This document shows, piece by piece, positions 3,025-60,026 of a stretch of DNA of 64,000 nucleotides. The translations under genes and the position numbers were made by a program. The notes under the pieces are model-generated. The model was given only the letters and a program-made list of their open reading frames with translations, was not told the DNA's origin and did not search any database. Location of the stretch: the NCBI GenBank assembly GCA_017858735.1, contig JAFMBH010000002.1, forward strand, positions 1-64,000, given 5' to 3'. The stretch's first letter is position 1; each line of letters starts with the position of its first letter. The stretch is from Bacteroidota bacterium (lineage in GTDB: Bacteria; Bacteroidota; Bacteroidia; Chitinophagales; Saprospiraceae).

Positions 3025-5055
3025 GGATCTGCCAACGCCATTAATTCCAGATCCGTGAAATTTATAATCTTTGTCCAATACATTCTGGAGCGTAAGATTT
3101 ATATCCATTTTTTTGAAATTGAATCCATTGGATATATTGATTACGCTCCAGCCTGGCGTTCCCAAGCGGCCAATCCTATTGTCAGAAATATCTCCAGCCG
3201 CAAGTCTTTGTTGTTTACCAGCCAGTTGAAAAAATAATTTAGCCCAAAATTTCTCCTTTTGATACTGAATATTGACATAACCAAAAAGGGGGGGGATTCT
3301 TCTGATAGGCTCTTTCTTACTGGTGTTCTGTCCATAGGTGTAGGTAAGGCTCCCTGTCATTTGTAAGTATCTGCTCAGGATATACTGAAAATTTGTCTCC
3401 ACACCCATAATATATCCGTTTTCTGCATTTTCCTTGATGTAAACTGGGTAGCCATCTATTGTTTCATTTCCTTTTTTGTTTCGTACAATAAGGTCTTTCA
3501 ATTGATTATGGTACAAATAGGTTTCGGAACTAAACTGCTTTTTATTCCATTTATAGCCAATTTGAAACTGCGTCGATTTTTCTGGCCTTAATCCATAATT
3601 GGGTATCTCATATCTGAAATCAACAATACCCAGACTACCTAAATCATCTATATTTGGCGCTCTGAAGCCAGTGTTCATGCCATAAATAACCTTAAAAGAT
3701 GGAGACACCGATTGAGAAAGGTATAAATTTCCAACCCATGCTGAAGGTTTTACATCTATTATTTTATCTCCTTCAATGGGTATTTTTAAGGATAAAAACT
3801 GAAATCGGTTGCCTATGGATAGTTGGAATTTATTATTTTCTATTTGCTGGTTGGTGAAAAATGCGTAACTCCGTTGTTCGGCATTATTAGGGTATAATCC
3901 TCTCTCAAATGTTTGAATGCCAAGGTCTTTATATCGAATCCTTTGGCTGTTAACTTTATCAAAGTAGCCATCGAAACCATGACTTCCCAACCATTTCCAT
4001 CCGGCAATATTTTGAGAGGTATGTATTTCAGCCACCAGGCCCATTACCTGAATCGTATCATTTTCAACGCTTGTTACCAGGCTATTCTTTTTTTTGCTCC
4101 AACGGCTCTCCACAGCTTTTTGAATACTAGGTAATATTTTTATTTTCTGAATAAAACCATTCTTAGGAGTGAAGGTATATGCTACATAAGCCAGCGTCCT
4201 TTTTTGGGGATCCATTTTATTCAGGTCAAAATTTTCTAAAATATATTTATGATATACAGGTACGTCCTGTTGACCAACGAATTGCAAAAGACCTTGGATA
4301 GATTGCCTATCGTCTATTTGTATTTTTGTTTTAATATCATAACCCAATTCATCATAACCACTGGGTCGTTGATAACCCGTTTTCTTTCCACCAATAAGGT
4401 CACCAAAGTTTCGTCCGGTAATACCGGAGCTTATCCAGCTATTATTTTTCTGAAAATTTACCCTACCATGTAAACTTTTTTCCATATTATGCGACCCAAT
4501 ACGACTAATTATTTTAGAAGAAAATCCAGCCTCATCCCTTGCGGAGGGTTCATAGCTCAACATATTAATAACACCTCCAATGGCGTCAGAACCAAATAAA
4601 ACAGAACCTGAACCTCTTAAAACTTCCATTCTATCTAAACTGAACCTATCTACTGTATTTAAATACTGATTTGGTCCATATCTGGTAATAGCGTTATTCA
4701 ATCTTATACCGTCCACCAGATATAAAATCTGATTGCCAGTTAGCCCTCTTACGATTGCAGAACCTCCTCCATGATTCGTTTTTTGAATAAAGACCCCTGG
4801 CGTTTCGAGTAATATTTCAGGAATATTTCTTTGCGCATTCAAGGATAAGTTCTTTTTACTTAGCAAAGAAACAGACTCGGCAGCGTTAAAAGCTCTTATT
4901 TCTACCCTGGTTGCCGAGTAAATGATCTCATTTAAATCGAGCGTAAGCAAGCTGTCATTACTGAATGAGGTTTGGTTGTTCTGCGCTTTTAATACCTGCG
5001 AAATTAAAATGAATGGCAGAAGTGAAATAAAAAAATGGAGTCTGTTTTTTTTCAT
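2995..5055 (-). CDS. TonB-dependent outer-membrane receptor
   Basis: This 686-residue protein begins with a clear signal peptide (MKKNRLHFFISLLPF...LKAQ). The plug follows at about residues 40-160, with NIPEILLETPGVFIQKT, GSAIVRGLTGNQILYLVDG and GSGSVLFGSDAIGGVINML, all typical of TonB receptors. The rest is a 22-strand barrel ending in GRSLILGFSWSI. The extra N-terminal carboxypeptidase-regulatory-like domain of SusC proteins is absent and no SusD gene is adjacent. It is therefore more like a siderophore, cobalamin or metal receptor than a SusC. The substrate cannot be read from sequence. The gene converges on the phosphoesterase with a 30-base overlap of coding ends. Confidence 0.92.
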   Translation of the reverse strand: MKKNRLHFFISLLPFILISQVLKAQNNQTSFSNDSLLTLDLNEIIYSATRVEIRAFNAAESVSLLSKKNLSLNAQRNIPEILLETPGVFIQKTNHGGGSAIVRGLTGNQILYLVDGIRLNNAITRYGPNQYLNTVDRFSLDRMEVLRGSGSVLFGSDAIGGVINMLSYEPSARDEAGFSSKIISRIGSHNMEKSLHGRVNFQKNNSWISSGITGRNFGDLIGGKKTGYQRPSGYDELGYDIKTKIQIDDRQSIQGLLQFVGQQDVPVYHKYILENFDLNKMDPQKRTLAYVAYTFTPKNGFIQKIKILPSIQKAVESRWSKKKNSLVTSVENDTIQVMGLVAEIHTSQNIAGWKWLGSHGFDGYFDKVNSQRIRYKDLGIQTFERGLYPNNAEQRSYAFFTNQQIENNKFQLSIGNRFQFLSLKIPIEGDKIIDVKPSAWVGNLYLSQSVSPSFKVIYGMNTGFRAPNIDDLGSLGIVDFRYEIPNYGLRPEKSTQFQIGYKWNKKQFSSETYLYHNQLKDLIVRNKKGNETIDGYPVYIKENAENGYIMGVETNFQYILSRYLQMTGSLTYTYGQNTSKKEPIRRIPPLFGYVNIQYQKEKFWAKLFFQLAGKQQRLAAGDISDNRIGRLGTPGWSVINISNGFNFKKMDINLTLQNVLDKDYKFHGSGINGVGRSLILGFSWSI

Positions 5056-5142
5056 TTCTAAAAATAATAATTCTTCAAATTAATCAAATTTTAATTACAA
5101 GAATTAATATTTATATTACATCTAATTAAACTTTAGATTATT

Positions 5143-7047
5143 ATGACAAAGGCAAGTTTCAAAGAAAAATTAAGGTATAATTTTGATAACACCCTCTCTA
5201 ATGGACCTATAGCTATTATATCCTGGTTGGCATTGGTCACGTTTCTATTAGTAATCTTAGCAGGTATCCTTCTTTTTATATTTGGATTAAGTGCAAATCC
5301 ATTAGAAAATGAACCTTTTGATTTGACTGAAGGTATGTGGCAAAGTTTAATGAGAGTGCTGGACGCCGGAACGGTAACTGGCGACGAAGGTTGGGCTTTT
5401 CGTCTATTTATGTTACTTATAACTATAGCAGGTTTGTTCATTTTCTCTTCCTTGATTGGCTCTATATCAAGTGGAATTGATGAAAGTATTTCCAATCTAA
5501 GAAAGGGTAAATCAAAAGTTATTGAAACCAATCATACCTTGATTTTAGGGTATAGCTCTATGATTTATTCCGTTATTTCTGAGTTGTGTCTCGCAAATGA
5601 AAGTAATAAAAAAGCAGTCATTGTTGTACTTGCTGATAAAGATAAAGTGGAAATGGAAGATGATATTCGATCTAAAATTTCAGACACTAAAACATCTAAA
5701 ATTATTGTTCGCAGCGGTAATCCATTGGATTTACGCGACTTGTTAATGGTAAATTATAATGAAGCAAAATCTATTATCCTTCTAAGTCCTGAAAATGAAG
5801 AAAATCCTGATAATCAAGTTATTAAATCTGTTTTAAGTATTACTGGAAATAAGAACAGGAAAAAAGAGCCCTATCATATTGTGGCAGAAATTAAAGATAA
5901 TGAAAATAGGCAAGTAGCCAATTTAGTAGGTGGAAAAGAGGTTTCGTATGTCTTTTCTTCAGATCTAATTTCCAGATTAACTGCTCAAACCTGCCGACAG
6001 TCAGGATTAAGTATTATTTATTCAGATTTATTGCAATTTGAAGGAGATGAAATTTATTTTTATTCAGATCATGGAATTCCAGGAATGACGTTTAGACAAT
6101 GTTTAAATTCTTTTGAAGACTCTTGTGTTATGGGGATATTTACGGCAAATAAAGAGGTATTACTCAATCCAGATATGAATTATTTGGTTGAAAAGGATGA
6201 TCAAATCATTTTAATCGCTGAGGATGATAGTAAAATTAACAGATTGCTCATTCCTAAAGAAATATTACCTGTAAACTTCATACCGGCTGCTAAAAGAGAG
6301 AAAGAACTGGAAACTACCTTGATTTTAGGTTGGAATCGTAAAGGAAAGAAAATTATTGAAGAATTAGATCATTATGTTGTCAAAGGTTCTTCCGTGAGTA
6401 TTTTGGGTGAAATTGAGGATGTCAAAGATTCCCTTACCTTGCTGTCTGAGGAGCTTCAAAATATTACCCTCTACTTTCAACATGGTAATATCAATGATAG
6501 AAATACTTTGGACGAGTTACGAATTGAATCATTTAATCATATTATTGTTTTAAGTTATATGGATAAGGGGAGTATTCAAATCTCCGATGCCATTACCCTA
6601 ATTTGTCTTGTCCATTTAAGAGATATATCTGAAAAAGCTGGAAAGGATTTTTCAGTGGTATCGGAAATGCTGGATGTTCAAAACAGAGAACTTGCCGAGG
6701 TGGCCAAAGCAGATGATTTCATCGTTAGTGATAATCTGTTAAGTCTTTTAATGACTCAAATTGCTGAAAATAAAGACCTGGAAAAAGTTTATGATTCTTT
6801 ATTTAATGATGAAGGGGCAGAGATTTATCTGAATCCGGTGGTGGAGTATTTAGATGTCCATCAGCCCACGGATTTTTACCAGGTGATAGAAAGTGCTTCA
6901 AAAATCGGACATACCGCCATTGGTTATAGAAAACTAAGTCCAAAGGAGTATGATAATGGTAAATTCGGTATTGTGTTGAATCCACTAAAATCAAAATCTA
7001 TACAGTTTGAACAAGGGGACTTTTTGATAGTATTGGCAGAATCCTGA
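5143..7047 (+). CDS. CASTOR/POLLUX-type ion channel with two RCK/TrkA-N-like domains
   Basis: The 634-residue protein has a first membrane helix at about 22-49 and a pore-loop region around 64-90 (GMWQSLMRVLDAGT). A second helix follows at about 90-113 (LFMLLITIAGLFIFSSLIG). Next comes the family hallmark SNLRKGKSKVIETNHTLILG, then two Rossmann-like RCK domains starting near residues 130 (HTLILGYSS) and 387 (TTLILGWNRKGKKIIEEL). The second transmembrane pair and the large cytosolic RCK tandem match the CASTOR/POLLUX and DMI1 family of cation channels, here in bacterial form. The pore lacks a classic GYGD filter, so ion selectivity is open. The gene stands alone between convergent and codirectional neighbours. 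Confidence 0.85.
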   Translation: MTKASFKEKLRYNFDNTLSNGPIAIISWLALVTFLLVILAGILLFIFGLSANPLENEPFDLTEGMWQSLMRVLDAGTVTGDEGWAFRLFMLLITIAGLFIFSSLIGSISSGIDESISNLRKGKSKVIETNHTLILGYSSMIYSVISELCLANESNKKAVIVVLADKDKVEMEDDIRSKISDTKTSKIIVRSGNPLDLRDLLMVNYNEAKSIILLSPENEENPDNQVIKSVLSITGNKNRKKEPYHIVAEIKDNENRQVANLVGGKEVSYVFSSDLISRLTAQTCRQSGLSIIYSDLLQFEGDEIYFYSDHGIPGMTFRQCLNSFEDSCVMGIFTANKEVLLNPDMNYLVEKDDQIILIAEDDSKINRLLIPKEILPVNFIPAAKREKELETTLILGWNRKGKKIIEELDHYVVKGSSVSILGEIEDVKDSLTLLSEELQNITLYFQHGNINDRNTLDELRIESFNHIIVLSYMDKGSIQISDAITLICLVHLRDISEKAGKDFSVVSEMLDVQNRELAEVAKADDFIVSDNLLSLLMTQIAENKDLEKVYDSLFNDEGAEIYLNPVVEYLDVHQPTDFYQVIESASKIGHTAIGYRKLSPKEYDNGKFGIVLNPLKSKSIQFEQGDFLIVLAES

Positions 7048-7102
7048 GTTTGAATTTCACCTCTTTTAGGCGTCATCCTTTTTGAAAGATTTTTTTTCAT
7101 TG

Positions 7103-7134
7103 TTTGACATTTACAAATATTAATCGTAATTTTA
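7103..7134 (+). promoter_or_regulatory. promoter of the arsR-arsM fusion
   Basis: TTTG at 7103-7106 and TAATTTTA at 7127-7134 are separated by 20 bases. This fits the Bacteroidota TTTG / TAnnTTTG promoter with one mismatch. Transcription would start near 7141, giving a leader of about a dozen bases before the ATG at 7154. The -7 box lies inside the palindromic operator, so regulator binding would block polymerase. Confidence 0.55.
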
Positions 7135-7144
7135 CGATTAATAT
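7117..7144 (+). promoter_or_regulatory. palindromic ArsR operator
   Basis: Two perfect 13-base arms, ATATTAATCGTAA and TTACGATTAATAT, flank a 2-base TT centre. The palindrome ends 9 bases before the start codon of a gene whose N-terminus is an ArsR repressor and overlaps the proposed -7 box. Length, symmetry and position are as expected for an ArsR/SmtB dimer site, which suggests autoregulation released by arsenite. Confidence 0.7.
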
Positions 7145-7153
7145 AACTGCCTT

Positions 7154-8287
7154 ATGATTGATGCCAAACCGACAGATTTTATTCAAACAGAAATTGAGAT
7201 AGCTAAATATGCCAAAGCATTAGCTCATCCGGCGAGAATAGCCATCCTTAACTTACTGAAAGCAAGAAATACTTGTATTTGCGGTGATATTGTAGATGAA
7301 TTACCTCTTGCTCAGAGCACAGTTTCTCAGCATTTAAAAGAATTAAAATCGGTCGGATTAATAAAAGGTGACATTGAAGGCACTAAAGTTTGTTATTGTA
7401 TCGACGACCAAAAATGGGAGCAGGTACAAGCATTATGGAATGATTTTTTCAAACATTTTAATTTAGGGAAAATGAAAACGGATGTTCAACTCAAGGAGAT
7501 TGTGAAGCAAAAATACAGTGAAATTGCTTTGCAGGAAAAAGGGGTTAATCAATCTTCTTGTTGCGGCGCAGGAGGTTGTTCCACGGAAGTGTACAATATT
7601 ATGACCGATAATTACACTGATCTTTTAGGATATAATCCTGACGCTGATTTGGGTTTGGGCTGTGGATTACCCACACAATATGCAAAAATTCAAAAAGGAA
7701 ATACGGTGATTGATTTAGGAAGTGGTGCGGGAAATGATTGTTTTATTGCAAGGGAAGAAGTTGGTGGAACAGGTAAAGTTATTGGCATTGATTTCACGAC
7801 AGCCATGATAGAAAAGGCGAGGATTAATGCAAAAAAGCTTGGATTTACTAATGTCCAATTTATACAAGGTGATATTGAGGAGATGCCTGTTGAATCAAAT
7901 ATTGCCGATGTGGTGGTGAGCAATTGTGTCCTCAATTTAGTGCCAAACAAAGAAGGGGTCATCAAAGAAATTTACCGTGTATTGAAGCCAGGCGGACATT
8001 TCAGTATTTCTGATGTCGTGCTCATTGGTGAGTTGCCGGAAAATTTACAAAAGGATGCAGAAATGTATGCCGGATGTGTTTCAGGTGCCATTCAAAAAGA
8101 GGAATATTTAGGTTTTATTTCTGGTAGTGGATTTACAAATGTTTCTGTTCAGAAAGAAAAGTCTATAATTATTCCCGATGATATTTTGAGTAAATATCTT
8201 GATAATGAAGCTCTGGATGCATTTAAGAATGGAAATACAGGTATATTCAGTGTAACGGTTTACGCAGAAAAACCGGTGATTTTATAA
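7154..8287 (+). CDS. arsM: ArsR repressor fused to arsenite methyltransferase ArsM
   Basis: One uninterrupted 377-codon ORF joins two proteins that are usually separate. Residues about 15-100 are an ArsR/SmtB winged helix ([29 protein letters not shown]). It has Cys41 and Cys43 (CIC) and Cys80 and Cys82 as candidate arsenite ligands. Residues about 107-377 are a full ArsM: SCCGAGGC at 135-142, the SAM loop DLGSGAGND at 187-195, and the three conserved cysteine sites GCGLP (Cys170), SNCVLNL (Cys258) and YAGCVSG (Cys308). Met107, in GKMKTD, looks like the original start of a free-standing ArsM and is preceded by an AG-rich stretch, so internal initiation is possible. The product would methylate arsenite using SAM and repress its own promoter. 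A palindromic operator lies just upstream. No arsB or acr3 pump is next to it. Confidence 0.88.
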
Positions 8288-8535
8288 AAAAAACTATGGA
8301 GATTTGTGCCGCCAAGGGCATGATGGGGATTTTGTGAAAATTTGTGCCGCCGGGGGCATGATGGGCTATAGACGTGTGACCCCAGAGGGGTCATGGACAT
8401 TGTAAATCTTGATTCAGAATGTCATCGCGTCTCTACTCGCACATCACCGCTCGTCCCTGCGAAACCCTGCGCAGAACCCTGCAAACACTGCGTCAAAAGC
8501 GTCCCTGTTAGCCCAAAGTATAAAGTAGCATAAAA
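8288..8535. repeat. gene-free stretch with palindromic repeat units and CCCTGC repeats
   Basis: No credible gene lies here. Two 26-base copies at 8302-8327 and 8340-8365 differ at only two central bases and are spaced 38 bases apart. Each reads ATTTGTGCC...GGCATGATGGG. A third, diverged unit at 8373-8397 keeps GTG...CATGG around a perfect palindrome at 8377-8393 (TGACCCC, aga, GGGGTCA). Further right, CCCTGC recurs at 8455-8460, 8465-8470 and 8477-8482. The stretch is visibly richer in G and C than its neighbours. It looks like remnants of interspersed intergenic repeats. Function is unknown. Confidence 0.65.
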
Positions 8536-8565
8536 AACGAGGCTATCTTTTTAGACAGCCTCGTT
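8536..8565 (-). terminator. terminator of the cytochrome c / DUF1080 operon
   Basis: AACGAGGCT (8536-8544) pairs with AGCCTCGTT (8557-8565), extended by two more pairs after one mismatch. Read on the minus strand, the stem is followed at once by a run of T, so it ends transcription from the minus-strand gene whose stop is at 8574. The plus strand also has a T-rich stretch a few bases after the stem, so it may work both ways. Confidence 0.75.
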
Positions 8566-8573
8566 GTAATTTT

Positions 8574-10511
8574 TTATTTTCTGGTATTAATCCAGGCGGC
8601 AAGTTTACGGATATCGGTGCGTGGAACATGTCCCATTGGCGCCATAGGCGTAGAATAATCAGGCCAATTTTCAGGCTTTGGCATAATGATAAGAGCTTCC
8701 ATTTCAGCCACCGTATATTTGCGTTTGGCGATATCAACATAAGAAGGACCAACCGCCCGTTCTTTTTCCTTATGACAAGCAACACAAGTATGTTTGGTTA
8801 ACAAGGCCATAGCTTCTTTATCAGAAATAACGGTACTTGAAGAAGCGCTCGGTTTTGAGGTTCCTTTAGGAGCTGCCTCTTTCATTTGATTATCGGGAGA
8901 ATTTACCTGTTTTCCTGCATCAATTCTCTCTCTTTCTGCCTTCGATTTTGGGGTTACCAACGTGATATTAGCTTTACTCCCGGAAGGAATTGCGTTTAAG
9001 GTATAGTATGCTGTTTTATGTAATAGCGGCAAGCTTTCGTTTTGAGAAAGAACGCCTTCAGGCACTACCGCATGAATGTAACCTGCTCTAAGTGCATCCA
9101 CAACAATTCTCACCTTCAGTCCATCTTCAGAGACTATAGCACCTCTAACAGGATTTTCACCTATATTAACCATAGGGCTGCCATATACAGGATGATATTT
9201 ATAAGTAAAACTACTGACGTCATAATTATTAACATCAGCGGCTAATTTCTTATTCACAGGAAGGGTAAACTCAATCTCAAATCCATCAGGCATAGCCTTC
9301 ACTGATTTCATTTCAAATGGCATTTTTCCTGTGAAAATCAGTCTTTCCAAGCCAAATGCCTCATTTCCAATGGATCCCCAACCTCTGTTTGTTCCACCGA
9401 CAAATAAGCTATGGTCATTACCCCAGGACATTCTCAAAACTCCTGATCTGAATCCTGAGCGAAAATCGAACGCGGCACCTTGATATTGACCATTTACTTT
9501 TTCAAGAAAAACCCTGGCAATTTTTGACATTCCCTGATCACCAACAAAAAGTTGACCTGAAAATGGACCGAATCCACCCTGGGTTTCATCGGCAATGATT
9601 TCAGAGGTAGAAACCCCTAAAACACCGTGAGGAAGCCAAACTGCGGGTGGTTTAATGCCTTTATCAGGTATCGCTTTACTCATATCAAAAATAGTAGTTT
9701 GAGGTAGCGCTTCCTTTTCAACATACTCCGGTTTAACTCTCGGATTATCACGTGGATCTACCAGAGCAAAAATTTCTTCTTTTCTCATTTTTACGGTTGA
9801 ATTGGGATTGTCGGCCCACGCCAGAGAAGCGGGATGTCCTAAAAAGTCCCCTTTTTCCACATGAGATATGAAACCTGAACCTTGCCAATCCCCTTGATTA
9901 TCTCCGTAAAAAAAGTCTCCGTTAATCATTCCAATGCCACAGGGAGAGCGCATACCAGCTGCAAAAGGTTCCATTTTACCGTCAGCACTTATTTTCATCG
10001 TCCAACCTCTCCATGGAACAAGTGATTTTCCCGCCCACCAGTCAGAACTACCAAAGGCAACATTCGCCGTCACATAAAAGGAACCATCGGGTCCTATTTT
10101 GGGTCCGTAAGAATATTCATGATAATGACCTGAGATGGGCCAGGAATAAACAGTTTCATATTTGTCAGCTTTTCCATCTCTATTTTTGTCAAGCAGGCGT
10201 GTTAATTCACCTCGCTGAGCACAATAAATAACGTCGTCCTTAATGGCTAAGCCTAATATTTCATGTAAACCCGTAGCAAATTTCCGAAAATAGGGCTTTG
10301 TAGAATATGGATTTTCGACAATATAAACATCACCCCGCCTTGAGGAAACGACTACATTACCATTTGACATGGTTGCCATGCCGCCTGCCTCCAGAATAAT
10401 ACCTTCAGGAATAGCTATTTTTGCTATTCTGTAGTAATCGTTTTCTGTTGGTTCTTGAGCAAAAACAGAAAATGAATATAAAAAAAGTAGAATTAAAAGA
10501 TTGCTTTTCAT
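8574..10511 (-). CDS. exported sugar-dehydrogenase-like beta-propeller with C-terminal cytochrome c
   Basis: The 645-residue protein has a signal peptide (MKSNLLILLFLYSFSVFAQ). A six-bladed propeller of the sorbosone/PQQ-glucose-dehydrogenase-like type follows at about residues 25-420 (IPEGIILEAGGMATM, LGLAIKDDVIYCAQRGELTRL). After a low-complexity linker, the last ~90 residues form a cytochrome c with CVACH near residue 575 and a Met-rich region (STPMAPMGHV) for the distal ligand. The likely role is periplasmic oxidation of a sugar or alcohol with electrons passed to the attached haem. Binding of PQQ is not established for this subfamily. It follows the DUF1080 gene by 18 bases, so the two form one transcript ending at the hairpin near 8550. 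Confidence 0.82.
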   Translation of the reverse strand: MKSNLLILLFLYSFSVFAQEPTENDYYRIAKIAIPEGIILEAGGMATMSNGNVVVSSRRGDVYIVENPYSTKPYFRKFATGLHEILGLAIKDDVIYCAQRGELTRLLDKNRDGKADKYETVYSWPISGHYHEYSYGPKIGPDGSFYVTANVAFGSSDWWAGKSLVPWRGWTMKISADGKMEPFAAGMRSPCGIGMINGDFFYGDNQGDWQGSGFISHVEKGDFLGHPASLAWADNPNSTVKMRKEEIFALVDPRDNPRVKPEYVEKEALPQTTIFDMSKAIPDKGIKPPAVWLPHGVLGVSTSEIIADETQGGFGPFSGQLFVGDQGMSKIARVFLEKVNGQYQGAAFDFRSGFRSGVLRMSWGNDHSLFVGGTNRGWGSIGNEAFGLERLIFTGKMPFEMKSVKAMPDGFEIEFTLPVNKKLAADVNNYDVSSFTYKYHPVYGSPMVNIGENPVRGAIVSEDGLKVRIVVDALRAGYIHAVVPEGVLSQNESLPLLHKTAYYTLNAIPSGSKANITLVTPKSKAERERIDAGKQVNSPDNQMKEAAPKGTSKPSASSSTVISDKEAMALLTKHTCVACHKEKERAVGPSYVDIAKRKYTVAEMEALIIMPKPENWPDYSTPMAPMGHVPRTDIRKLAAWINTRK

Positions 10512-10529
10512 GTTATAGTCATTGATGAT

Positions 10530-12320
10530 TTACCAAATAATTGAATATTGAACTTTGTCTGAAGCTGGAATAACCAATGCTTTTTGATTATCTCCCGTTT
10601 CAATCGTTGCTCCTGCGACTTCGATATAATAGGCTTTCCCATCTATAAGATATCTGTTTTCCCCAGTTTTTATGATGTCACTACCTACGGCAAGTCGACA
10701 AACATGATTGAGATTAGGATTTTTTATCGTCAGTGTTCTTTGAAAATGCTTTTTATTTACCATAACGGTTTTGTCAAGAATATCAGCACCATCAAGCATA
10801 TAATTAAAGGTTGGAATATCTTCATTATCAAGTTCGTAGCCTTTTATCAATAGATTATCACCTAAATTATCCTGACTAAATACAGTCGATTTACTGGTAA
10901 AAAAAGCATTGGGAGAAAGCGTTAAAACAGCACCTAAGGGTCTGGACGAACCATCGCCACGATCATCCCACATTGGGGTTGTATTTAAAAAATTTCCTTT
11001 CCAAATCTGAACGATATTAGCATTATCAAGGTCAAAGGTGTAGTGCAATTTATCAGGACTTCCCACATTTACAGCATGGACCACTCTTTTTATCCTTTTC
11101 CCATTTTTCATTACATCCATGAAGGAACGAAATACCCTGGACGTATTTGCATCGAGGGAAATTTCTTCACTAGTCGATGTAGATAGATAAGAACCGGTGC
11201 CATGAAGGGCGGTATTTCTGAAATTTGGACCGCTTATCCAAAAGCCCAAAGAGTTATTAACCCTTTTATCTGTTTTAATTTGAATTATTTCAAACGGAAC
11301 CTTTCCTGCCGGCAAGTTAAGGAGAAGAGTTCTTCGATTATTATCTTCCTCTTTAGGTTCTGCATAAACCTCCTTGCCATTTATCTGAATAAAATACTTT
11401 CCTTTAATTTCAAATTCAATGCTATGTTCTCCGGCGGTGGGAATATTTAGCATTGTTTTTATGCTATTTGCAAATTGAGAAGTATTTGAGGTAAGATCCC
11501 AGGTAAGCTTATCTGAAGTTACTGTTACCTCAGGTTTCTTAGCTGACAATTCTTCGCGACCTTTGAATTCTCCTAAATAAACCTGATAATTAACAGGATC
11601 TAAATAGGCAGGTTTGTCGCTCAGGTCTTTCACACTGAAATGTCTGAAAGCAACGGAACCATGATCTCCTTGAATAACAAAAGGTCCTTTTTCCGTTTCC
11701 ATTTCAGAAATTGAACCCCCTGTGGGACCGCTGAGACTTACGTTTTCATGAATAATGGCACCGTTAAGCTTAATTTGAATCATTTTTGCATCGGATATCT
11801 TTTTTCCATTGCTATCAAATCTTGGCGCTTGAAAAGAAATATCTATGTGTTGCCATAAGCCGGGAGCCAGACAAGCGTTTACCCTGGGAGCATAACCTTC
11901 GTAGGTTACAAGGGGAGGACCTTGCTTGAATCTCTGATATATACCACCACAATCGGCCGTCGTTGGATTTAAAACACCCCATGAATCCAATAATTGTACC
12001 TCATATCTACCCTGCAAATAAAAGCCGGAATTAGAATGTGCTGACATCATAAAATCAAAGCTGATATCAACGTCTCCGTAGTCTTTCGCTGAATGAAGAT
12101 TTGACATATTACCTTCGGAAGGTAGATTCACCAAAACACCTGTGCCAGGAGTAAGGGTAAATACATCTTTTTTTGAAAGATCAGCGGAAGCATCCTTAGC
12201 TAATTTCCAATTTGTTTTTCCGGTAGATTTAAAGAAAGATAAATCTTCCAGAGGGATATATTCCTGAGCATTCAAGGTCAATGGTATCCAAAATAAGCAT
12301 ACCCAAAAAATCTTTTCCAT
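10530..12320 (-). CDS. exported DUF1080 (3-keto-disaccharide hydrolase-like) protein
   Basis: The 596-residue protein starts with a short signal (MEKIFWVCLFWIPLTLNAQ). Residues about 20-245 are a concanavalin-like DUF1080 domain: DYGDVDISFDFMMSAHSNSG, GFYLQGRYEVQLLDSWG, PFVIQGDHGSVAFRHF. This family includes glycoside hydrolases that cleave 3-keto-disaccharides. Residues about 270-370 resemble a PA14-like beta domain (FEIKGKYFIQINGKEVY). The C-terminal ~190 residues are beta-rich and not recognised. The gene is first in a two-gene transcript with the dehydrogenase/cytochrome protein, which fits oxidation and cleavage of sugar substrates. Enzyme activity is inferred from family only. Confidence 0.78.
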   Translation of the reverse strand: MEKIFWVCLFWIPLTLNAQEYIPLEDLSFFKSTGKTNWKLAKDASADLSKKDVFTLTPGTGVLVNLPSEGNMSNLHSAKDYGDVDISFDFMMSAHSNSGFYLQGRYEVQLLDSWGVLNPTTADCGGIYQRFKQGPPLVTYEGYAPRVNACLAPGLWQHIDISFQAPRFDSNGKKISDAKMIQIKLNGAIIHENVSLSGPTGGSISEMETEKGPFVIQGDHGSVAFRHFSVKDLSDKPAYLDPVNYQVYLGEFKGREELSAKKPEVTVTSDKLTWDLTSNTSQFANSIKTMLNIPTAGEHSIEFEIKGKYFIQINGKEVYAEPKEEDNNRRTLLLNLPAGKVPFEIIQIKTDKRVNNSLGFWISGPNFRNTALHGTGSYLSTSTSEEISLDANTSRVFRSFMDVMKNGKRIKRVVHAVNVGSPDKLHYTFDLDNANIVQIWKGNFLNTTPMWDDRGDGSSRPLGAVLTLSPNAFFTSKSTVFSQDNLGDNLLIKGYELDNEDIPTFNYMLDGADILDKTVMVNKKHFQRTLTIKNPNLNHVCRLAVGSDIIKTGENRYLIDGKAYYIEVAGATIETGDNQKALVIPASDKVQYSIIW

Positions 12321-12349
12321 TTACAATTGTTTTGTTAAAATTTGATATA

Positions 12350-12357
12350 CAAATATA
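12350..12357 (-). promoter_or_regulatory. -7 box of the DUF1080 operon
   Basis: On the minus strand this reads TATATTTG, an exact TAnnTTTG box about 30 bases before the start codon at 12320. No -33 TTG lies at the best spacing. It sits just downstream of the terminator of the preceding minus-strand gene, which supports an independent promoter here. Confidence 0.5.
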
Positions 12358-12379
12358 TAAAAAGGAAAGGACAAAAAAA

Positions 12380-12423
12380 GGACAATCCTCCTTTCCTTGC
12401 ATCAAAGGAAAAAAGGATTGTCC
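12380..12423 (-). terminator. terminator of the BNR/VPS10 protein operon
   Basis: GGACAATCCT at 12380-12389 pairs perfectly with AGGATTGTCC at 12414-12423, and inner bases (TTTCCTT against AAAGGAA) can extend the stem. On the minus strand the stem is followed by a seven-base T run. It lies 24 bases beyond the stop of the 1018-residue protein gene. Confidence 0.8.
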
Positions 12424-12447
12424 GATCAAAATTATTTATTTTAATTA

Positions 12448-15400
12448 TTATGGTTTGGGCCCTATCTTATTCAAAATGGGCACATATTTGGTTTTCAAAG
12501 AGGTAAGAGCTTCATTTGCCTTCTTAATTTCCTCATTCAGGTCTTTTGCCCTCGTTTCCTGCAAATTACTCGGTTTTGAGTCATTGCTACAAACAGCGAC
12601 ATAAACTTCACTTATATCCTCCCGAAGCCTTCTGATGTCGGCAAACATACTTTTCATTTCGACAGGAACCAATGTTTCTCTCAATGTATAAAGTGCTTTG
12701 GCCGATTGAGAAAGGGTTTCCTTGTAAGCAGGTTTTTTAACTTCCGCACTTAATTTAGTTAAGAGTTCCTCCTCAGCAATCAACTCATCTACCAAAGAGG
12801 CTAAATTCTTATGCATTTCGTACAATTGCATACTCAATGCATGCCTTGCTTTCCTGTCTTCCAAACTGAAGGAGGGATTAGATTCGTCGTGAACCAGCTG
12901 AATATTCTGCGTAATTACCTCAGTACCTTTGGTCATCCTAACTGTATAATTGCCTGGTAAAACAGCGGGTGCAGTAAAAGTAGCATAATCTACTTTACTT
13001 CCTTTGGCCGTTTTTGGGGGTTCCATTCGCAAATTCCAAAACACCTTGTTTAATCCTTTTCTTTTGGATGGATTACTCAGTTTTTGTACCAGCTTCCCTT
13101 GTTCATCCAAAATATCAATGGAAAATTCACCCGTACTCGGTCTATCTTTAAGATAATAAATTATGGGTTTAATACCTGGAGCATTGGGGGCTACCCAACC
13201 GCCCGTTGCGGGAAAGCTTCCTGCTGAAAATTCACCGTCTGAAATGGCAAGGGGAGGGGTAGGTAGAAAAATGGCGGCTTGCATCGCTTCTTTCTCCGTC
13301 AAAGATCTCATAGGACTTATATCATCTATTACAATGATACCTCTGCCATGCGTACCAAGGATGAGGTCGTTTGTTTTAGGATGAATGGCAATATCCCGGA
13401 CTAAAGCATACCAGGGAATATTATTTTTCATTCTGTTCCATTGTTTTCCCCCATCAAAACTGGTAAAAAATCCCATTTCTGTGCCAAGGAAAAGTAAATC
13501 GGGACGCACCAGATCTTCTTTTATCTTATGAGCAAAACCTGTGAATTCACTACTTTTAAAAGAAATCCATGTTTTGCCCAGGTCGGTTGATTTTGCTAAA
13601 TATGTTTTATGATCCCCATAGGCATGGTGGTCAAAAGTGGCATAAATTGTGTTTTTATCAAATCTGCTCGGTTCCACACTACTGACCCATGCCTGGGCAG
13701 GAATGCCTGTTTTTGATACGTTAGCACTGGTATTTGTCCAGGTTTTACCTCCATCGGTAGTCACCTGAAAATTACCGTCATCGGTACCGACCCAAATGAT
13801 TTTTTCGTCTAACGGACTTTCTGCTATAGCGAAGATAGTCGTGTGGTTTTCAGCACTGGTCACATCGGCACTGATACCACCACTTTTTTCTTGTTCCTGC
13901 TTTTTTGGATCATTTGTTGTCAAATCGGGAGAAATTCTCTCCCAATTTCTACCCTGGTCAGTACTTTTGAACAGATATTGAGCACCAGTATAAAGATTAC
14001 CTTTGTTTGCTGCACCTGTAACGATAGGCGTATTCCAATTCCATCTCAACTTACCATCGCTCTTGCCTGCCTGAGGTTTTATGTCAAGTGATTTAAAGGT
14101 TTTTAAATGGACTCTGGCCATGGAACCACCCTGCGCTTCCGCATAAGCATAATCAGGATGTAAAGGATCGGGTACGGTCCAGAATCCATCTCCACCATAA
14201 ATGCTTTTCCAATCGCCATTACTTATACCACCTGGCACGGCAGAAGGAGCGACCCAACTACCATTATCTTGTAATCCGCCATAAATTCGGTAGGGAGTTT
14301 CATTATCAACGGCAACATGATAAAATTGACCTACGGGAAGGTTGCTCAGAAAAATCCAGGTAACCCCTCTGTCCTGACTCAAATAAACGCCTCCGTCGGT
14401 TCCAAGATACATTTGAGCGGTATTATTGGGATTAATCCAAAGCGCATGATGATCACTATGTACCCAACCGCCTTCGCTACTGGCATCGGTAAATGAATAG
14501 CCACCATCACTGCTATAACTGAAACTGTAAGCTGGGCGGTAAACCCTTTTCGCATCTTTGGGGTCAACCACCAGCGTGCTGAAATAAAAAGGTCTGCTCA
14601 CAACATTTAAGGAAGCACTTTGAGGTTTCCAGCTTTCGCCATTATCACTACTAATATATAGCCCGGTATTTTCACTTTCTACAATAGCCAGTAAATTTTC
14701 AGGCGCAGAAGGAGCTAAAGCCATGGCGATTCTTCCAAATGGTTTTTGTGGAAGACCTTTGGTAATTTCTTTCCAGGTTTTCCCTGCATCCGTACTTTTA
14801 TAAAGACCACTTCCATTGCCACCACTCGAAAAACTAAAGGCAGTTCTTCGGAACTCCCAGGTAGTTGCATAAATGACAGAGGCGTCACGTGGGTCGAGTA
14901 ACAAGTCGGCTACACCCGTTTTTTCATTGATATATAAAATTTTAGACCATGTTTTTCCTCCATCTTCAGATTTATATAATCCCCGGTGAGGACTATCAGA
15001 CCACAGGGCTCCTGGTACGGCTACATATAAAGTAGAAGGATTTTTGGGATCAATGGCAATTTTTGAAATATGTTCAGTACTGTCAAGACCTATTTTCTTC
15101 CAGTTTTCCCCACTATCGGTCGTTTTGTAAAGTCCATTACCAATGGACACAGAGTTTCGCATATTACTTTCACCCGTTCCCACATAAATAATTTTTGCAT
15201 TGGTGGGGTCAATGGCTAAGGCGCCAATGCTCTGGCAGTATTTATCAAAAATAGGTTTGAAAGAGGCACCTGCATTTATGGATTTCCAGATACCTCCACC
15301 GGCTGTGCCAACATAAAGGATTTTTGGATCAGATACAACGCCTTCAATGGCGGAAATTCTACCACTCATGGTTCCCGGGCCTAATTGCCTGGCTTCCAAC

Positions 15401-54845: not shown

Positions 54846-56081
54846 TTATTTTCCCTTGTAAGTCAGTACCGATTTTTGATCATCTTTAAGCCATACCTGC
54901 GCCGCCTGTTGGATTTCCTCGGCGGTCAGAGATTGGTATATATCTGATTCCGCATTCATCAAATCGGCGTTTCCCAAAGCTTCGAAAAAGCCTAAATTCA
55001 TCGATTTAGATTGAATACCCATTTCTGAAAGTACTAAGGTGCTTTCTGCTTTGTTTTTCCATTTTTGAAGTTCAGTGGATTCAATCAACTGGGTTTTAAG
55101 GACATTTATCTCCTTACTTATAATTTCCTCTGCATCCTGTAAAGAAATTTTTTCCGTAGGCCTTCCTTCAAATACAATTAGCCCCGGGTCAAAATCACCC
55201 GTAACGTAACAATCAATATGATTAAAATACTTGTTTTCTCGGGTTAACCGGTGTATTAATCTTGACGATGGACCATTACTGAATATATCACTAAGCAAAT
55301 CAACAGCATAAAATGCTTTATCTGCCCTTGCGGGACATGGAAAGGTCATGTATATGGCATCAACGGGAACTTCCGCCTGACTTTGTTTATGCCTGGCCTC
55401 TTTCTTAGGGGGTTCTAAGGAATAATTTTTTTTAATCGTTTTGCCAGATGGAATGTCATTAAACCATTTCATGGCCAATTCCTTCATTCTTTTTATAGAA
55501 ATAGGTCCGGCAATGACTAATATAGCATTACCCGGATGATAATATTTGTTGTAAAATTTTTTAACGTCAGTTAAATTGGCTCTTTCGATGTGACTGGGGT
55601 GTACACCGATGGTTGGCCATTTGTAAGGGTGTTTTTCATAGTTTAATGATGATAATTCATGCCATACATCACCGTAAGGCAAATTGAGACAGGTTTCATA
55701 AAATTCTTCAACCACCACCTTTTTTTGCACATCAAGGACTTCTTTTTGAAGCATTATCTCTAACATTCTGTCAGATTCTAACCATAATGCGGTTTCAATA
55801 TTTATGGCTGGCAACGTAGTAAAAAAATGGGTGTAATCATGATTGGTATAAGCATTATTTTCCCCTCCAGCTCTTTGCATAACACCATCATAGTCAGGAA
55901 TATTTATTGATCCCCCAAACATTAAATGCTCAAAAAGATGAGCAAAACCTGTTTTTTCAGGATGCTCGTCTCTTGACCCTACCTTGTAAAGTACGCTAAT
56001 ACTTGCTATAGGCGTATTTTTGTCTTCGTGCATCAATACCGTTAACCCATTTTGAAGGACCATTTTTTCGTAGGAGATCAT
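54846..56081 (-). CDS. M16-family zinc metallopeptidase
   Basis: The 411-residue protein is a full single-repeat M16B peptidase. The inverted zinc motif is H48-L-F-E51-H52 (in TGFAHLFEHLMFGG) and the third ligand Glu is near 125 in VVVEEFYE. The conserved NNAYTNHDYTHFF and the second half (PAEADKAF-type ACPA region, VFEGRPTEKISLQDAEE) are present. There is no signal peptide, so it is likely cytosolic or exported by another route. Its ATG overlaps the stop of the 70-codon membrane-protein gene (ATGA), the last step of a very tight operon. M16B enzymes often work in pairs with an inactive partner, and none is adjacent here. Confidence 0.93.
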   Translation of the reverse strand: MISYEKMVLQNGLTVLMHEDKNTPIASISVLYKVGSRDEHPEKTGFAHLFEHLMFGGSINIPDYDGVMQRAGGENNAYTNHDYTHFFTTLPAINIETALWLESDRMLEIMLQKEVLDVQKKVVVEEFYETCLNLPYGDVWHELSSLNYEKHPYKWPTIGVHPSHIERANLTDVKKFYNKYYHPGNAILVIAGPISIKRMKELAMKWFNDIPSGKTIKKNYSLEPPKKEARHKQSQAEVPVDAIYMTFPCPARADKAFYAVDLLSDIFSNGPSSRLIHRLTRENKYFNHIDCYVTGDFDPGLIVFEGRPTEKISLQDAEEIISKEINVLKTQLIESTELQKWKNKAESTLVLSEMGIQSKSMNLGFFEALGNADLMNAESDIYQSLTAEEIQQAAQVWLKDDQKSVLTYKGK

Positions 56082-56290: not shown

Positions 56291-59269
56291 TTATTCTTCA
56301 TCATCGTCTTCCTCACTTAATAAATCCAAAAACTCATCCTGAGATAAGGTTCCCGTAGCAAACTGTCTTACCAATTGTTTTAGGTGTGTCATAGCGGCTT
56401 CAATAGATGCAGCGCTCATATCCCACTGATTAATCAGGTTTAAATAGAAGTGAACGATGGCTTCAATAGCCTCATCCTGAGTTACTTTCCTCCAATCCTT
56501 GAGATCTAAGCCCAACAACAGATTTAGCAATCTTTCTACGACGTAACTAATGGCAATGGCCTCTCTTTTTTCGCCAAATTCTATTTTTTCAAGCAGTTCG
56601 GATCGTTCCTGAGCCATTGGAAGGAGCGCCTGAAATAGTAAAGAGACGAGCAAATAGGGGATTCTTCGCCCTCCACTTTTCGCATCAACTGCTTGTAGAA
56701 TAGCATCAAGAATCTGGTGGATATATTCATCTTCCACCCATTCCGGCTGCTCTACGACGCCTTCAAAGATAATTTGAACTAAATCAAGAATCTGGTCCTC
56801 ACTTAATTTTATAGTGTATCTTCCATTTTTGCGTTCCATACTTATAGCCGTAGCAAATTGCTGCAAAGCCTCTATAAGTAAATGGCGGAATTGAGTGTCA
56901 TTTACCTCTAATAAAATGGTTAATCGTCCCGCGCTTTCTTCAAAGAGATTTCGAAGAATCTCTAAACCTATTTCCGGATGATCAATAGATAAAAGATGAA
57001 TGGCCCCGGCTGATTCCTGGGCAATTTCCCTCAAACCTGGTGCCTCTTGTATTAATTCAGGTTGCGTGGCAATGGCAAGCAGCACGGCTTCAACCAATTC
57101 GTCGGTCTGGTCTTCAATAATGCCATTGGACAAATCTAATCCTACCGCATCAGATAATATAAGTTCTAAAATAGCTAAGCCAGTGGTATTTGGATTTTCA
57201 GAAACCAGATCTTCAATGGCATAAGCGATGACGTCCATTAATTGCTTGGTTTTATGCAAGCCAGCTCTCTCTCCGGGAGGAAATAACCAGGCAATTACTA
57301 AATTAAAGGCATGCTCTAATACTGTTTTTTCTGAAGGAGATTCACCGTATTGTATCCGATCCATTAAATGGGGACTTCTTTCTATCGCCTCCAGTTCGGA
57401 CTCAATGACCTGAGTAAGTAAGTCATACCCTAATCGTTGATCTGCGGGTATTTTCGATAAAGTGCGGAATGGAATGGCCAAAACCTCTCTAATCATGGGA
57501 TTACCTTCAAATGAGGTAGTCAACCAGTTAGGATTTTTTATGACAGCATCCAGCAATAATTCTACGAAGGAAAGTAATTGCCCCGGGGTTAATTGAGGGT
57601 GCTTTGAATTGGATGTTTCATTGGCAGAAAGGGCGGCTAAAATTTCCCTCAATCCTGCAATAAGAAGATATTCTTCTTTCCCATTTTCTAAGGATACCCT
57701 CAGGTTTAGTTGTAATGCAGATTTTTCTAAAATCATGCGTGTTAACTCAGGAAGCAGGTTGAGTTGCTGAATTTTTGATTCTTTCAATGCATCAGAAACA
57801 CCAGAGAACAAGTCATCCCATGTATTTTCAGCCGCTATAAGGTGCGGATGTTGTGAAAATAAAGCCAATGCAGCTTCTACCATTTGATCGGCCCATTGAC
57901 GATCAAAACCATACCTGAATCCAAATCCTGTGTCAGGGGAAACGATAATTTTTATAAAAGTCAGACCTAACTCACTAGGGTAGGTCTGTAAAATTTCTTC
58001 TAAAGTAAAAGAAATTAATGACCTGAAGAGGGCTATATTTTTTCCCTCACTCATTTCATTTTGACGATGAAATGCCGCTGAAATTACTAATAATACCCCT
58101 CGATCTAAAATACTTTTATTTCCAATCTTCTCTATACTGCTCTCCCAAAGGGTTGGATTTTCAGCAGCGCATTGAAGATATTTGTCCAACAAAAAGCGAT
58201 GTAAAACATGATTGCTTTTTATGGCATCGGGTAAATTTTCTTTTATTATATCAAAACCCTGAAGTAATTGATAAATAGGCGCCGTATTTTGAGTATCTGG
58301 GGTAACTAAATAGGGGAATTTAATAATGACGTCCAATATTTTCCCGGCATTTTCGAGAAATAATTCTTTACTTTCTAAAGCATTTGAAAGTATATTTTTC
58401 TCATTAAATTGCCAGATCGCTTGCATGGCAACACTAATAACAGGGAATTTTTCTGTTAAGTACGCAATATTAACGATGCCCTTTTCTAAAGAAAGGGTTA
58501 AGAATCTTCCCGCAATTACATCTTGAATTCCTTTGTTTTCTCCTTTTTTGTACCAGCTCAGAAGCGGACTGATAAGTTTATTGTTTTCCTGTTGATTTCC
58601 AGCGCTTTCAAAGGCAATACGCAGGAATACATCAAATACAAACAGCCTGTCTTTTGCCTCCAGGGGAATATGTTGATAGACAAAATAGACTCTTTCCAAG
58701 GTTAAATGCACGCTCGCCTCATCTAAATACCGAAAAAAGGATAATCCAAGGGTAGTAGTAACGGCTTCTTTGTAAAAAAGCAGATGGGTGCTTTCACCAG
58801 GAAATTCCTCTTTTTTTAACAGGATAAAGGTGAATAATTGCTCCATTAGCCTGGAGTATTGGGCCGAATCTTGTTGAAATGAATCCGTGGCTTCGTGTGA
58901 AATTAATCCAACGTTTAATACGTCGGAAAGAATATCTTTTCCCTTGATAAAATTTTCCTGAATTAAAAAATAGCGCAAAAATTCTTTAAGAAAAAGCTGG
59001 CTATTGGGGTTAAATAAGGTAGGAAGATTATGGAAAGCAGCCAAACTATGACCTATTAAATTAGGTACTATGTGTTTATGATTTCCTGAAAATGATGGAT
59101 AGTTTGCCAACGGATTCACTTCTGCGTTGCGAAAGGTAAGTAAACGTTTTTCAAATTCCTCCTGAGAAATTTCATTATCGACAGCTTTGAACAAAGCTAT
59201 TAATTCATTTTGTTTACTGATTGGCAGGGTTTTACCCCATTCCAGAAATAAGTTAATATATGAAATCAA
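56291..59269 (-). CDS. large helical repeat protein of unknown function
   Basis: The 992-residue protein has no signal, membrane helix or known domain; I do not recognise the family. It is almost entirely amphipathic helix with a clear super-repeat of about 260 residues. One sub-module starts near 434 (LGLTFIKIIVSP, then QMVEAALALF) and 693 (TGLAILELILSD, then ELVEAVLLAI), with a partial copy near 956 (AASIEAAM). A second sub-module occurs near 311 (ILDVIIKFPYLV), 563 (LLLDAVIKNPNWL) and 823 (IIFEGVVEQPEWV). The C-terminus is acidic (SQDEFLDLLSEEDDDEE), and a similar ISQEEFEKRL lies near residue 34. It looks like an alpha-solenoid scaffold. It starts 10 bases after a GNAT gene and runs without gap into the small membrane-protein and M16 peptidase genes. 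Confidence 0.85.
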   Translation of the reverse strand: MISYINLFLEWGKTLPISKQNELIALFKAVDNEISQEEFEKRLLTFRNAEVNPLANYPSFSGNHKHIVPNLIGHSLAAFHNLPTLFNPNSQLFLKEFLRYFLIQENFIKGKDILSDVLNVGLISHEATDSFQQDSAQYSRLMEQLFTFILLKKEEFPGESTHLLFYKEAVTTTLGLSFFRYLDEASVHLTLERVYFVYQHIPLEAKDRLFVFDVFLRIAFESAGNQQENNKLISPLLSWYKKGENKGIQDVIAGRFLTLSLEKGIVNIAYLTEKFPVISVAMQAIWQFNEKNILSNALESKELFLENAGKILDVIIKFPYLVTPDTQNTAPIYQLLQGFDIIKENLPDAIKSNHVLHRFLLDKYLQCAAENPTLWESSIEKIGNKSILDRGVLLVISAAFHRQNEMSEGKNIALFRSLISFTLEEILQTYPSELGLTFIKIIVSPDTGFGFRYGFDRQWADQMVEAALALFSQHPHLIAAENTWDDLFSGVSDALKESKIQQLNLLPELTRMILEKSALQLNLRVSLENGKEEYLLIAGLREILAALSANETSNSKHPQLTPGQLLSFVELLLDAVIKNPNWLTTSFEGNPMIREVLAIPFRTLSKIPADQRLGYDLLTQVIESELEAIERSPHLMDRIQYGESPSEKTVLEHAFNLVIAWLFPPGERAGLHKTKQLMDVIAYAIEDLVSENPNTTGLAILELILSDAVGLDLSNGIIEDQTDELVEAVLLAIATQPELIQEAPGLREIAQESAGAIHLLSIDHPEIGLEILRNLFEESAGRLTILLEVNDTQFRHLLIEALQQFATAISMERKNGRYTIKLSEDQILDLVQIIFEGVVEQPEWVEDEYIHQILDAILQAVDAKSGGRRIPYLLVSLLFQALLPMAQERSELLEKIEFGEKREAIAISYVVERLLNLLLGLDLKDWRKVTQDEAIEAIVHFYLNLINQWDMSAASIEAAMTHLKQLVRQFATGTLSQDEFLDLLSEEDDDEE

Positions 59270-59279
59270 AGTTATTGTT

Positions 59280-59867
59280 TTATTTGTACATGTTTTTTAA
59301 TAAGCCATAAACCCAGACATCTCCGCGATCTCCTGACAGTTTATAAATTTCCCCCCGGAGCTCCCCTTCGCGTAAAAATCCGAATTTTCTTGCCAATGTA
59401 GGTAAGGTAAAATTTTCAGTGGATGCTTTTATGGTAATTTTATTTAAAAGAAGCTGGTTGAAAAAATAGGGAATCATGGTTTGTAAGGTATCAGACATAA
59501 TGCCTTCACCCATTCGGTTTTTATCTGTAAAAAATCTTAATTCACCTATATTTTCTGGCATTCTTCTTGAAATATCAAGATAACCCACCAAGCACAATTT
59601 ATCTTTATCCCAGAGGCCAAAACTGAATGATTCCTGTTTTAACCAAGAGATAATTGTTTTTCTTACATAAAGTTCTGCACCATCTAAAGTAGATAAAGCC
59701 GAGGTAATCACCGGAAAATATTCACTTATCAAACTATTATTTTCTGCAACCAGGTCATAAAAAACCTTTCCGTCGCCCTCCCGTAACCTTCTAATGAGTA
59801 CCTTTTTACCTAAAATAGCTGTTTCAATAGCATATAAATCAGCATCGATGAAATTTTCTGTAAGCAT
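59280..59867 (-). CDS. GNAT-family N-acetyltransferase (RimJ/RimL-like)
   Basis: The ATG at 59867 (195 residues) is preferred over an in-frame TTG 27 bases upstream. The protein has the RimJ/RimL-like pattern: VLIRRLREGDGKVFYDLV at the start, LVGYLDISRR and IGELRFFTDKNRMGEGIMSD, which contains the acetyl-CoA loop. NKITIKASTENFTLPTLARKFGFLREGELR closes the fold. It would acetylate an amine such as a protein N-terminus or a small molecule; the substrate is unknown. It is the first gene of the operon with the 992-residue repeat protein (10-base gap), the small membrane protein and the M16 peptidase. Confidence 0.88.
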   Translation of the reverse strand: MLTENFIDADLYAIETAILGKKVLIRRLREGDGKVFYDLVAENNSLISEYFPVITSALSTLDGAELYVRKTIISWLKQESFSFGLWDKDKLCLVGYLDISRRMPENIGELRFFTDKNRMGEGIMSDTLQTMIPYFFNQLLLNKITIKASTENFTLPTLARKFGFLREGELRGEIYKLSGDRGDVWVYGLLKNMYK

Positions 59868-60026
59868 ATTTGAGGTGATTTTTGAAAAGCACAAAATAAG
59901 AACTTTCTAGCTTCTAAATTTAATTTTATATATAACCTGATAAGTTGGGAAATGGTTACTTCTGTCCAATGAATTACCTGTAAACCATAAAAATATCAAC
60001 GACTTTTGCTTTTAAGTAAAGTTAGT

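Follow-up and report, generated by a model that had tools for sequence, protein, structure and literature searches.

Tandem 261-residue units, a predicted alpha-solenoid and a paired lipoprotein gene in the Saprospiraceae

The locus and its internal repeat

The window analyzed here, by which the whole stretch of 64,000 nucleotides is meant, carries on its minus strand at 56291..59269 a gene for a protein of 992 residues plus stop. Translation likely begins at the TTG at 59269, since the first in-frame ATG lies far inside the gene, and coding constraint is seen from residue 1. Ten nucleotides upstream, at 59280..59894 of the same strand, is a gene for a GNAT acetyltransferase (Pfam Acetyltransf_3, E 3e-9) that is presumably RimJ/RimL-like and for which an in-frame ATG at 59867 would be the likelier start. 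An M16-type peptidase recognized by Pfam is encoded at 54846..56081, also on the minus strand, and occupies the spot after the solenoid gene where most relatives have a TPR-like lipoprotein.

The 992-residue protein contains a pronounced internal repeat. Ungapped self-alignment at an offset of 262 scores 171, as against 48 for the next best offset and a mean of 38.8±4.2 (maximum 51) for the best offset in 40 shuffled proteins. Gapped self-alignment pairs residues 401-690 with 661-985 at a score of 208, where 100 shuffles give 39.5±6.8 and at most 57. A unit model of 261 positions, seeded with the two copies of the window protein and iterated over 28 proteins, finds two full matches in it, at 417-677 (267 bits) and 679-931 (212 bits). 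The chain can accordingly be divided, in minus-strand coordinates, into a fast-evolving N-terminal region (residues 1-299, 58373..59269), as judged by dN/dS against five congeners; a decayed second half of a unit (residues 300-416, 58022..58372), which matches unit columns 132-239 and is recognized by profiles only; a full unit of the type here called mid (residues 417-678, 57236..58021); a full unit of the type called last (residues 679-940, 56450..57235), both assigned from the unit model and from their grouping in a tree of units; and a conserved, strongly acidic C-terminal tail (residues 941-992, 56294..56449), defined by an alignment of 24 proteins including that of the window. Net charges of the mid unit, the last unit and the tail are -12, -29 and -10, the last of these within 52 residues.

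An earlier note on this DNA, made from the letters alone, had described the same reading frame (minus strand, TTG start, 992 aa) and a super-repeat of about 260 residues, and both descriptions stand. Its two alternating sub-modules, A and B, turn out to be segments of one 261-residue unit; the pattern that it gave for sub-module B, a helix followed by proline and hydrophobic residues, is seen in the unit consensus at the ends of several odd-numbered helices. The copy of B that was placed near residue 311 is upheld by profiles and not by pairwise alignment. A profile-profile comparison pairs residues 300-407 with the second half of the unit at a probability of 51%, and their single-sequence E values are 8e-7 with the mid-unit model and 5e-5 with the first-unit model; aligned pairwise, residues 1-400 score 43 against the rest of the protein, where background is 41±5, and residues 300-416 score 47 and 42 against the first unit of each of the two closest relatives, where shuffles reach 54 and 62. 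A partial copy near 956 finds no support, because the unit model has no match beyond 931 and residues 941-992 are the family-wide tail. The resemblance between short motifs at the two ends is weak as a design element, an equally good one arising in 9 of 500 shuffles.

The 261-residue unit and its family

The consensus of the unit comprises about ten helices, i.e. about five helical hairpins. Within it there is a likeness between helices 3-6 and helices 7-10 (P 3.5e-7, probability 93%); five controls with shuffled columns gave P 0.13-0.46. A construction from equal hairpin repeats of ~52 residues was considered and finds no support over the whole unit: helices 3-4 match helices 7-8 at P 1.7e-7, but the pairings H1-2/H5-6, H1-2/H9-10, H3-4/H5-6 and H5-6/H9-10 reach only 0.01-0.06. 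Among the 24 proteins counted as full-length, that of the window included (four of the 28 were set aside as truncated genes), two units are found in three, three in thirteen, four in six and five in two. Protein length rises by 261 residues per unit in a fit over 19 proteins, from which the window protein, L030, L070, L074 and L036 were omitted because of irregular ends or units, and the 261-residue unit is therefore the block that evolution has copied.

In a tree of 86 units the first, mid and last units mostly sort by position, and when each unit is compared with those of other proteins, its closest match shares its type in 25 of 25 first, 33 of 34 mid and 26 of 26 last units; the position labels of the four truncated genes were assigned by hand. 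The first full copy of the window protein (417-678), which was left unlabelled, best matches a mid unit, so that its two full units are a mid and a last. The separation of types is imperfect, since the six units of L074 and L036 cluster by themselves and those of L070 and L072 branch deep. In L060, L062 and L063 the supernumerary units are mids that are sisters in the tree, and a further cluster unites units 3 and 4 of L065 and L068; as judged from these groupings, the additional copies are duplicated mid units. Concerted evolution is not apparent between L065 and L068, whose corresponding units match at 63-75%, yet mids within one protein can be sisters, as in L060, L062 and L063.

The relatives share, besides the units, an N-domain of about 280 residues and the C-terminal tail. 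The N-domain is not detectable in the window protein with the N-domain model (best E 0.03). A 7.6-bit match of that model in L118 is false, the protein being by eye a permease-type membrane protein. At least two tandem units, of the mid and last types, and the tail place the window protein in the family; two features that are usual in relatives, the N-domain and a paired lipoprotein gene, were not found in the protein and its genome respectively. The window protein amounts to a mid and a last unit that follow an eroded N-terminus.

The solenoid gene occurs in 29 of 199 genomes of the window's own family. In an order-level sample it was found in 12 of 298 genomes, every one of them in that family, and in class-level and phylum-level samples, both poor in family members, in 1 of 295 and 1 of 296, each time only the window's genome. 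Within the genomes sampled so far the solenoid is confined to this one family. Viral contigs contain no relative, and plasmids and phages no match to the window protein; a mobile or viral origin was rejected on these grounds. Two loci from records CAMDWC01 (L027 and L029) carry the window-genus protein at 95-98% identity. The solenoid of genome G153 is 38% identical to the window protein over residues 412-989.

Sequence searches leave the family without a name. Pfam matches of the window protein are no better than E 0.086 and NCBIfam matches no better than 0.027, and a search of PDB sequences at E 5 yielded nothing. Database scans of 20 full-length relatives, out of the 28 proteins of the unit model, gave scattered weak Pfam matches (at best 0.0013, to Rota_NS6 in one member, and 0.0027, to NBAS_11th in two), a best PHROGs match of 8e-4 in one member, and no PADLOC or NCBIfam family at E 0.01. 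None of the 16 weakly matching Pfam families (20 members, E up to 0.1) is a HEAT, ARM or TPR model, and family profiles searched against PDB sequences gave best values of 0.0052, to a designed helical repeat, and 0.037. The earlier remark that no named family with this unit was known is in keeping with the lack of a convincing sequence match for the window protein or 20 relatives, and a full-text literature search, with subscription papers outside its scope, had no description of such a family among the papers that it listed. The family is apparently new, of a kind, the alpha-solenoid, that is already known.

As to the fold, the helices of the proposed helical solenoid are predicted, and its structural neighbors are none of them decisive. 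A model of the whole protein made without an alignment has pLDDT 42; that of one unit, made with a shallow alignment of window and congener units, has helices throughout and a short beta hairpin at a weak pLDDT of 55 and pTM of 0.52. Foldseek with this low-confidence unit model gave no match at E 0.001, and its list holds HEAT/ARM-type and designed repeat proteins. The VIA neighbors are HEAT/ARM proteins, designed helical repeats and other helical proteins, with rmsd mostly 5-8 and Z up to 10.3, which is below the level that the tool calls telling for helical repeats. The predicted fold is consistent with a HEAT/ARM-like solenoid.

Constraint within the window genus

Comparison of the window gene with those of five congeners reveals a division within the chain. 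dN/dS is 0.13-0.31 for residues 1-299, 0.14-0.15 for 300-416, 0.000 in all five comparisons for the mid unit (417-678) and 0.005-0.017 for the last unit (679-940), while seven neighboring genes in the same comparison have values of 0.02-0.26; the GNAT gene has 0.02-0.06. Counted as residue differences, the five full-length congeners depart from the window protein at 23, 33, 37, 45 and 41 positions of residues 1-416 and at 1, 1, 1, 1 and 3 of the 576 residues 417-992 (Fisher 2e-8 to 7e-17 for the first four). The mid unit is unchanged in five of six congeners and has three changes in the sixth, the truncated MAG gene L027, which differs at 35 positions in residues 1-416; the last unit has one or two changes against the five full-length congeners.

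Contig-wide, against genome G001, residues 417-992, a stretch chosen after the data were seen, have a dN/dS of 0.0057 and would rank second of 59 genes (median 0.075); 23 of 82 open reading frames were dropped from this ranking for want of a usable ortholog, and the solenoid gene itself is among the 59. The only gene below that value (0.0044) lies at 114648-115946 on the minus strand of the window's own contig, C132, and encodes what we take, by eye, to be the double GTPase Der. In other genera, where the pairs compared are more distant, N-domain and units are about equally conserved, and as far as tested the contrast is therefore peculiar to the window genus.

Partner genes, possible roles and known helical repeats

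The gene downstream of the solenoid in relatives encodes a lipoprotein, helical and about 260-320 residues long, that shows weak TPR matches and, in 15 of 16, a lipobox-like motif. Among the same 199 genomes the solenoid is present in 29, the lipoprotein in 25 and both in 24 (Fisher 5e-25, uncorrected for kinship); since the genomes are related, this co-occurrence does not amount to 199 independent trials. Of 34 tabulated loci, 26 were usable after removal of four from the window genus and four ending within 150 nt past the gene. The lipoprotein gene starts at most 131 nt downstream in 18 of these and at up to 3.5 kb in another three (L062, L069, L073); in the remaining five (L030, L057, L058, L107, L108) the fetched stretch shows no lipoprotein gene. 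Five solenoid genomes are without the lipoprotein: three belong to the window genus, one (G024) has a shortened N-terminal region, and in one (G149) the contig stops past the gene. No lipoprotein was found in the window's own genome (best E 0.79). G153 has both genes, far apart.

Only in G020 does a lipoprotein genome lack the solenoid. A domain resembling the lipoprotein forms there the C-terminal part of a fusion protein of 1658 residues that also has PKD and Amidase_2 domains (8013-12989 of locus L102) and whose gene adjoins those of an AAA_5 ATPase and of an EAD11-iSTAND protein. Genome G132 has a second solenoid-lipoprotein pair (4954-13602 of locus L067), near which lie an S8 subtilase gene on the upstream side and an eCIS_core (PF13699) gene on the downstream side.

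It is conceivable, if on the whole unlikely, that solenoid and lipoprotein form one envelope complex, in which the solenoid gets to the periplasm or surface by an unrecognized route, or is seated on the membrane, and docks on the lipoprotein. Operon-like spacing, the strong co-occurrence, which extends to genes that lie far apart in G153, and the rather hydrophobic N-terminal helix of relatives agree with such a complex, as does the failure to find the lipoprotein in two lineages whose N-domain is undetectable (the window genus) or shortened (G024). However, G024 still yields an N-domain match, and two lineages are all that connect the N-domain with the lipoprotein. A plain hydropathy scan found no clear signal peptide in 26 solenoids, although six have somewhere a 19-residue stretch of 1.65-1.75 and the N-terminal helix of relatives is fairly hydrophobic, so that membrane association of the solenoid may occur. 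An exported lipoprotein and an unexported solenoid would need a further step to meet, a point against the reading preferred below. Because no clear signal peptide is visible, the solenoid is better placed in the cytoplasm, perhaps in association with the membrane, and contact with the exported lipoprotein is not assumed; the two proteins may serve one pathway from opposite sides of a membrane.

The GNAT neighbor offers a different possible partner. In eukaryotic Nat complexes a large helical solenoid, the auxiliary subunit Naa15 or Naa25, carries and positions a small N-acetyltransferase, and the solenoid could by analogy be the auxiliary subunit of the neighboring GNAT in a bacterial counterpart, although this seems improbable. 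In 16 of 31 loci, among them four from the window genus, a GNAT gene precedes the solenoid gene on the same strand at a distance of at most 267 nt (GNAT distances are wrong where genes overlap, in L031, L061 and L064, and lipoprotein distances were tabulated separately), and 24 of the 29 solenoid genomes have the GNAT group. The window genus, moreover, kept the GNAT and lost the lipoprotein, so that GNAT is there the remaining partner gene, and itself conserved. However, the group, delimited at E 1e-60 after a gap from 2e-68 to 5e-45 had been seen, is present in 38 of 199 genomes, of which 14 lack the solenoid, and five of the 29 solenoid genomes are without it at this cut-off (G028 and G156 have weaker matches beyond it). 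In at least seven solenoid genomes (G029, G074, G079, G083, G135, G162, G178) the GNAT lies on another contig, and the lipoprotein pairing is the tighter of the two. An obligate partnership, as expected for a Nat auxiliary subunit, is not what the genome distribution displays.

The site itself points the same way. Cyclase, GNAT and UPF0102 genes follow each other with nothing between in 6 of the 14 GNAT genomes without a solenoid (L112, L116, L117, L119, L120, L123), an empty form of the site, the other eight lacking that order; in L031, L070 and L072 the filled site reads cyclase, GNAT, solenoid, lipoprotein, UPF0102. Joint presence or absence of solenoid and lipoprotein at a site where the GNAT remains favors the solenoid-lipoprotein pair, and retention of the GNAT in their absence speaks against its obligate dependence on the solenoid. 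A large helical solenoid encoded next to a small GNAT enzyme does recall the Nat auxiliary subunits; unlike these, the solenoid has no such chain among its PDB sequence matches and a GNAT whose distribution is independent of it. In a highly improbable elaboration, the solenoid would wrap the GNAT and bring it substrates or the ribosome; the Nat architecture would then have been invented independently in bacteria, and the window genus would have kept its barest form (mid, last, tail and GNAT).

Very doubtful, too, is a role as binding platform of an antagonism or immunity system, for which the PKD/Amidase_2 fusion beside AAA_5 and EAD11-iSTAND genes in G020 and the eCIS_core neighbor in L067 are hints of one locus each, with no PADLOC match in 20 members, no match of the window protein in plasmids or phages, and near-frozen units in the window genus that are the opposite of arms-race evolution.

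The reading preferred here, tentatively and with somewhat less than even confidence, is that of an apparently undescribed alpha-solenoid family of tandem 261-residue units, with the protein as a HEAT/ARM-like scaffold that binds a fixed partner through its last two units. Sequence comparison establishes the units in two to five copies, their three positional types, the duplication of mids, the N-domain and tail of relatives and the tight pairing with the lipoprotein gene; it establishes likewise that in the window genus, where the lipoprotein was not found, the N-terminal 416 residues evolve fast and the last two units and tail are nearly invariant. Near-identity of the last two units between species makes a fixed partner protein probable, and the part from mid unit through tail would grip that one partner. 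N-domain and first unit would serve a function linked to the lipoprotein and would have decayed once the lipoprotein was lost; their joint loss or decay in the window genus suggests such a tie, from few events. Additional mids would lengthen the scaffold and leave both ends unaltered, a scaffold of constant ends and extensible middle that fits the unit types. The "scaffold or binding solenoid" of the earlier note remains the best guess.

A duplicated 261-residue unit with fixed first, mid and last types provides a clean natural case of the growth of a giant scaffold. The near-unchanged part suggests a constant partner for which a search can now be made, and the pairing with the lipoprotein offers another handle that can be tested, in a bacterial family to which Haliscomenobacter hydrossis belongs, described in PMC3156403 as sheathed and chain-forming.

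Among the nearest known systems are the HEAT/ARM solenoids (transportins, CAND1, CLASP TOG domains, beta-catenin), which share helical hairpins in a row with the predicted fold of the family and which, together with designed repeats, dominate the top structural neighbors of the low-confidence model. Unlike HEAT/ARM repeats, the hairpins of the family look longer, about 44-64 residues by eye from the consensus, and are grouped in a fixed 261-residue unit that is itself the duplicated element and has no HEAT/ARM Pfam match. Compared with a TPR, which has 34 positions, the unit is seven to eight times as long, and the solenoid has no TPR match at E 0.1; the weak TPR matches lie instead in the paired lipoprotein (best E 1.7e-4, in two of five members).
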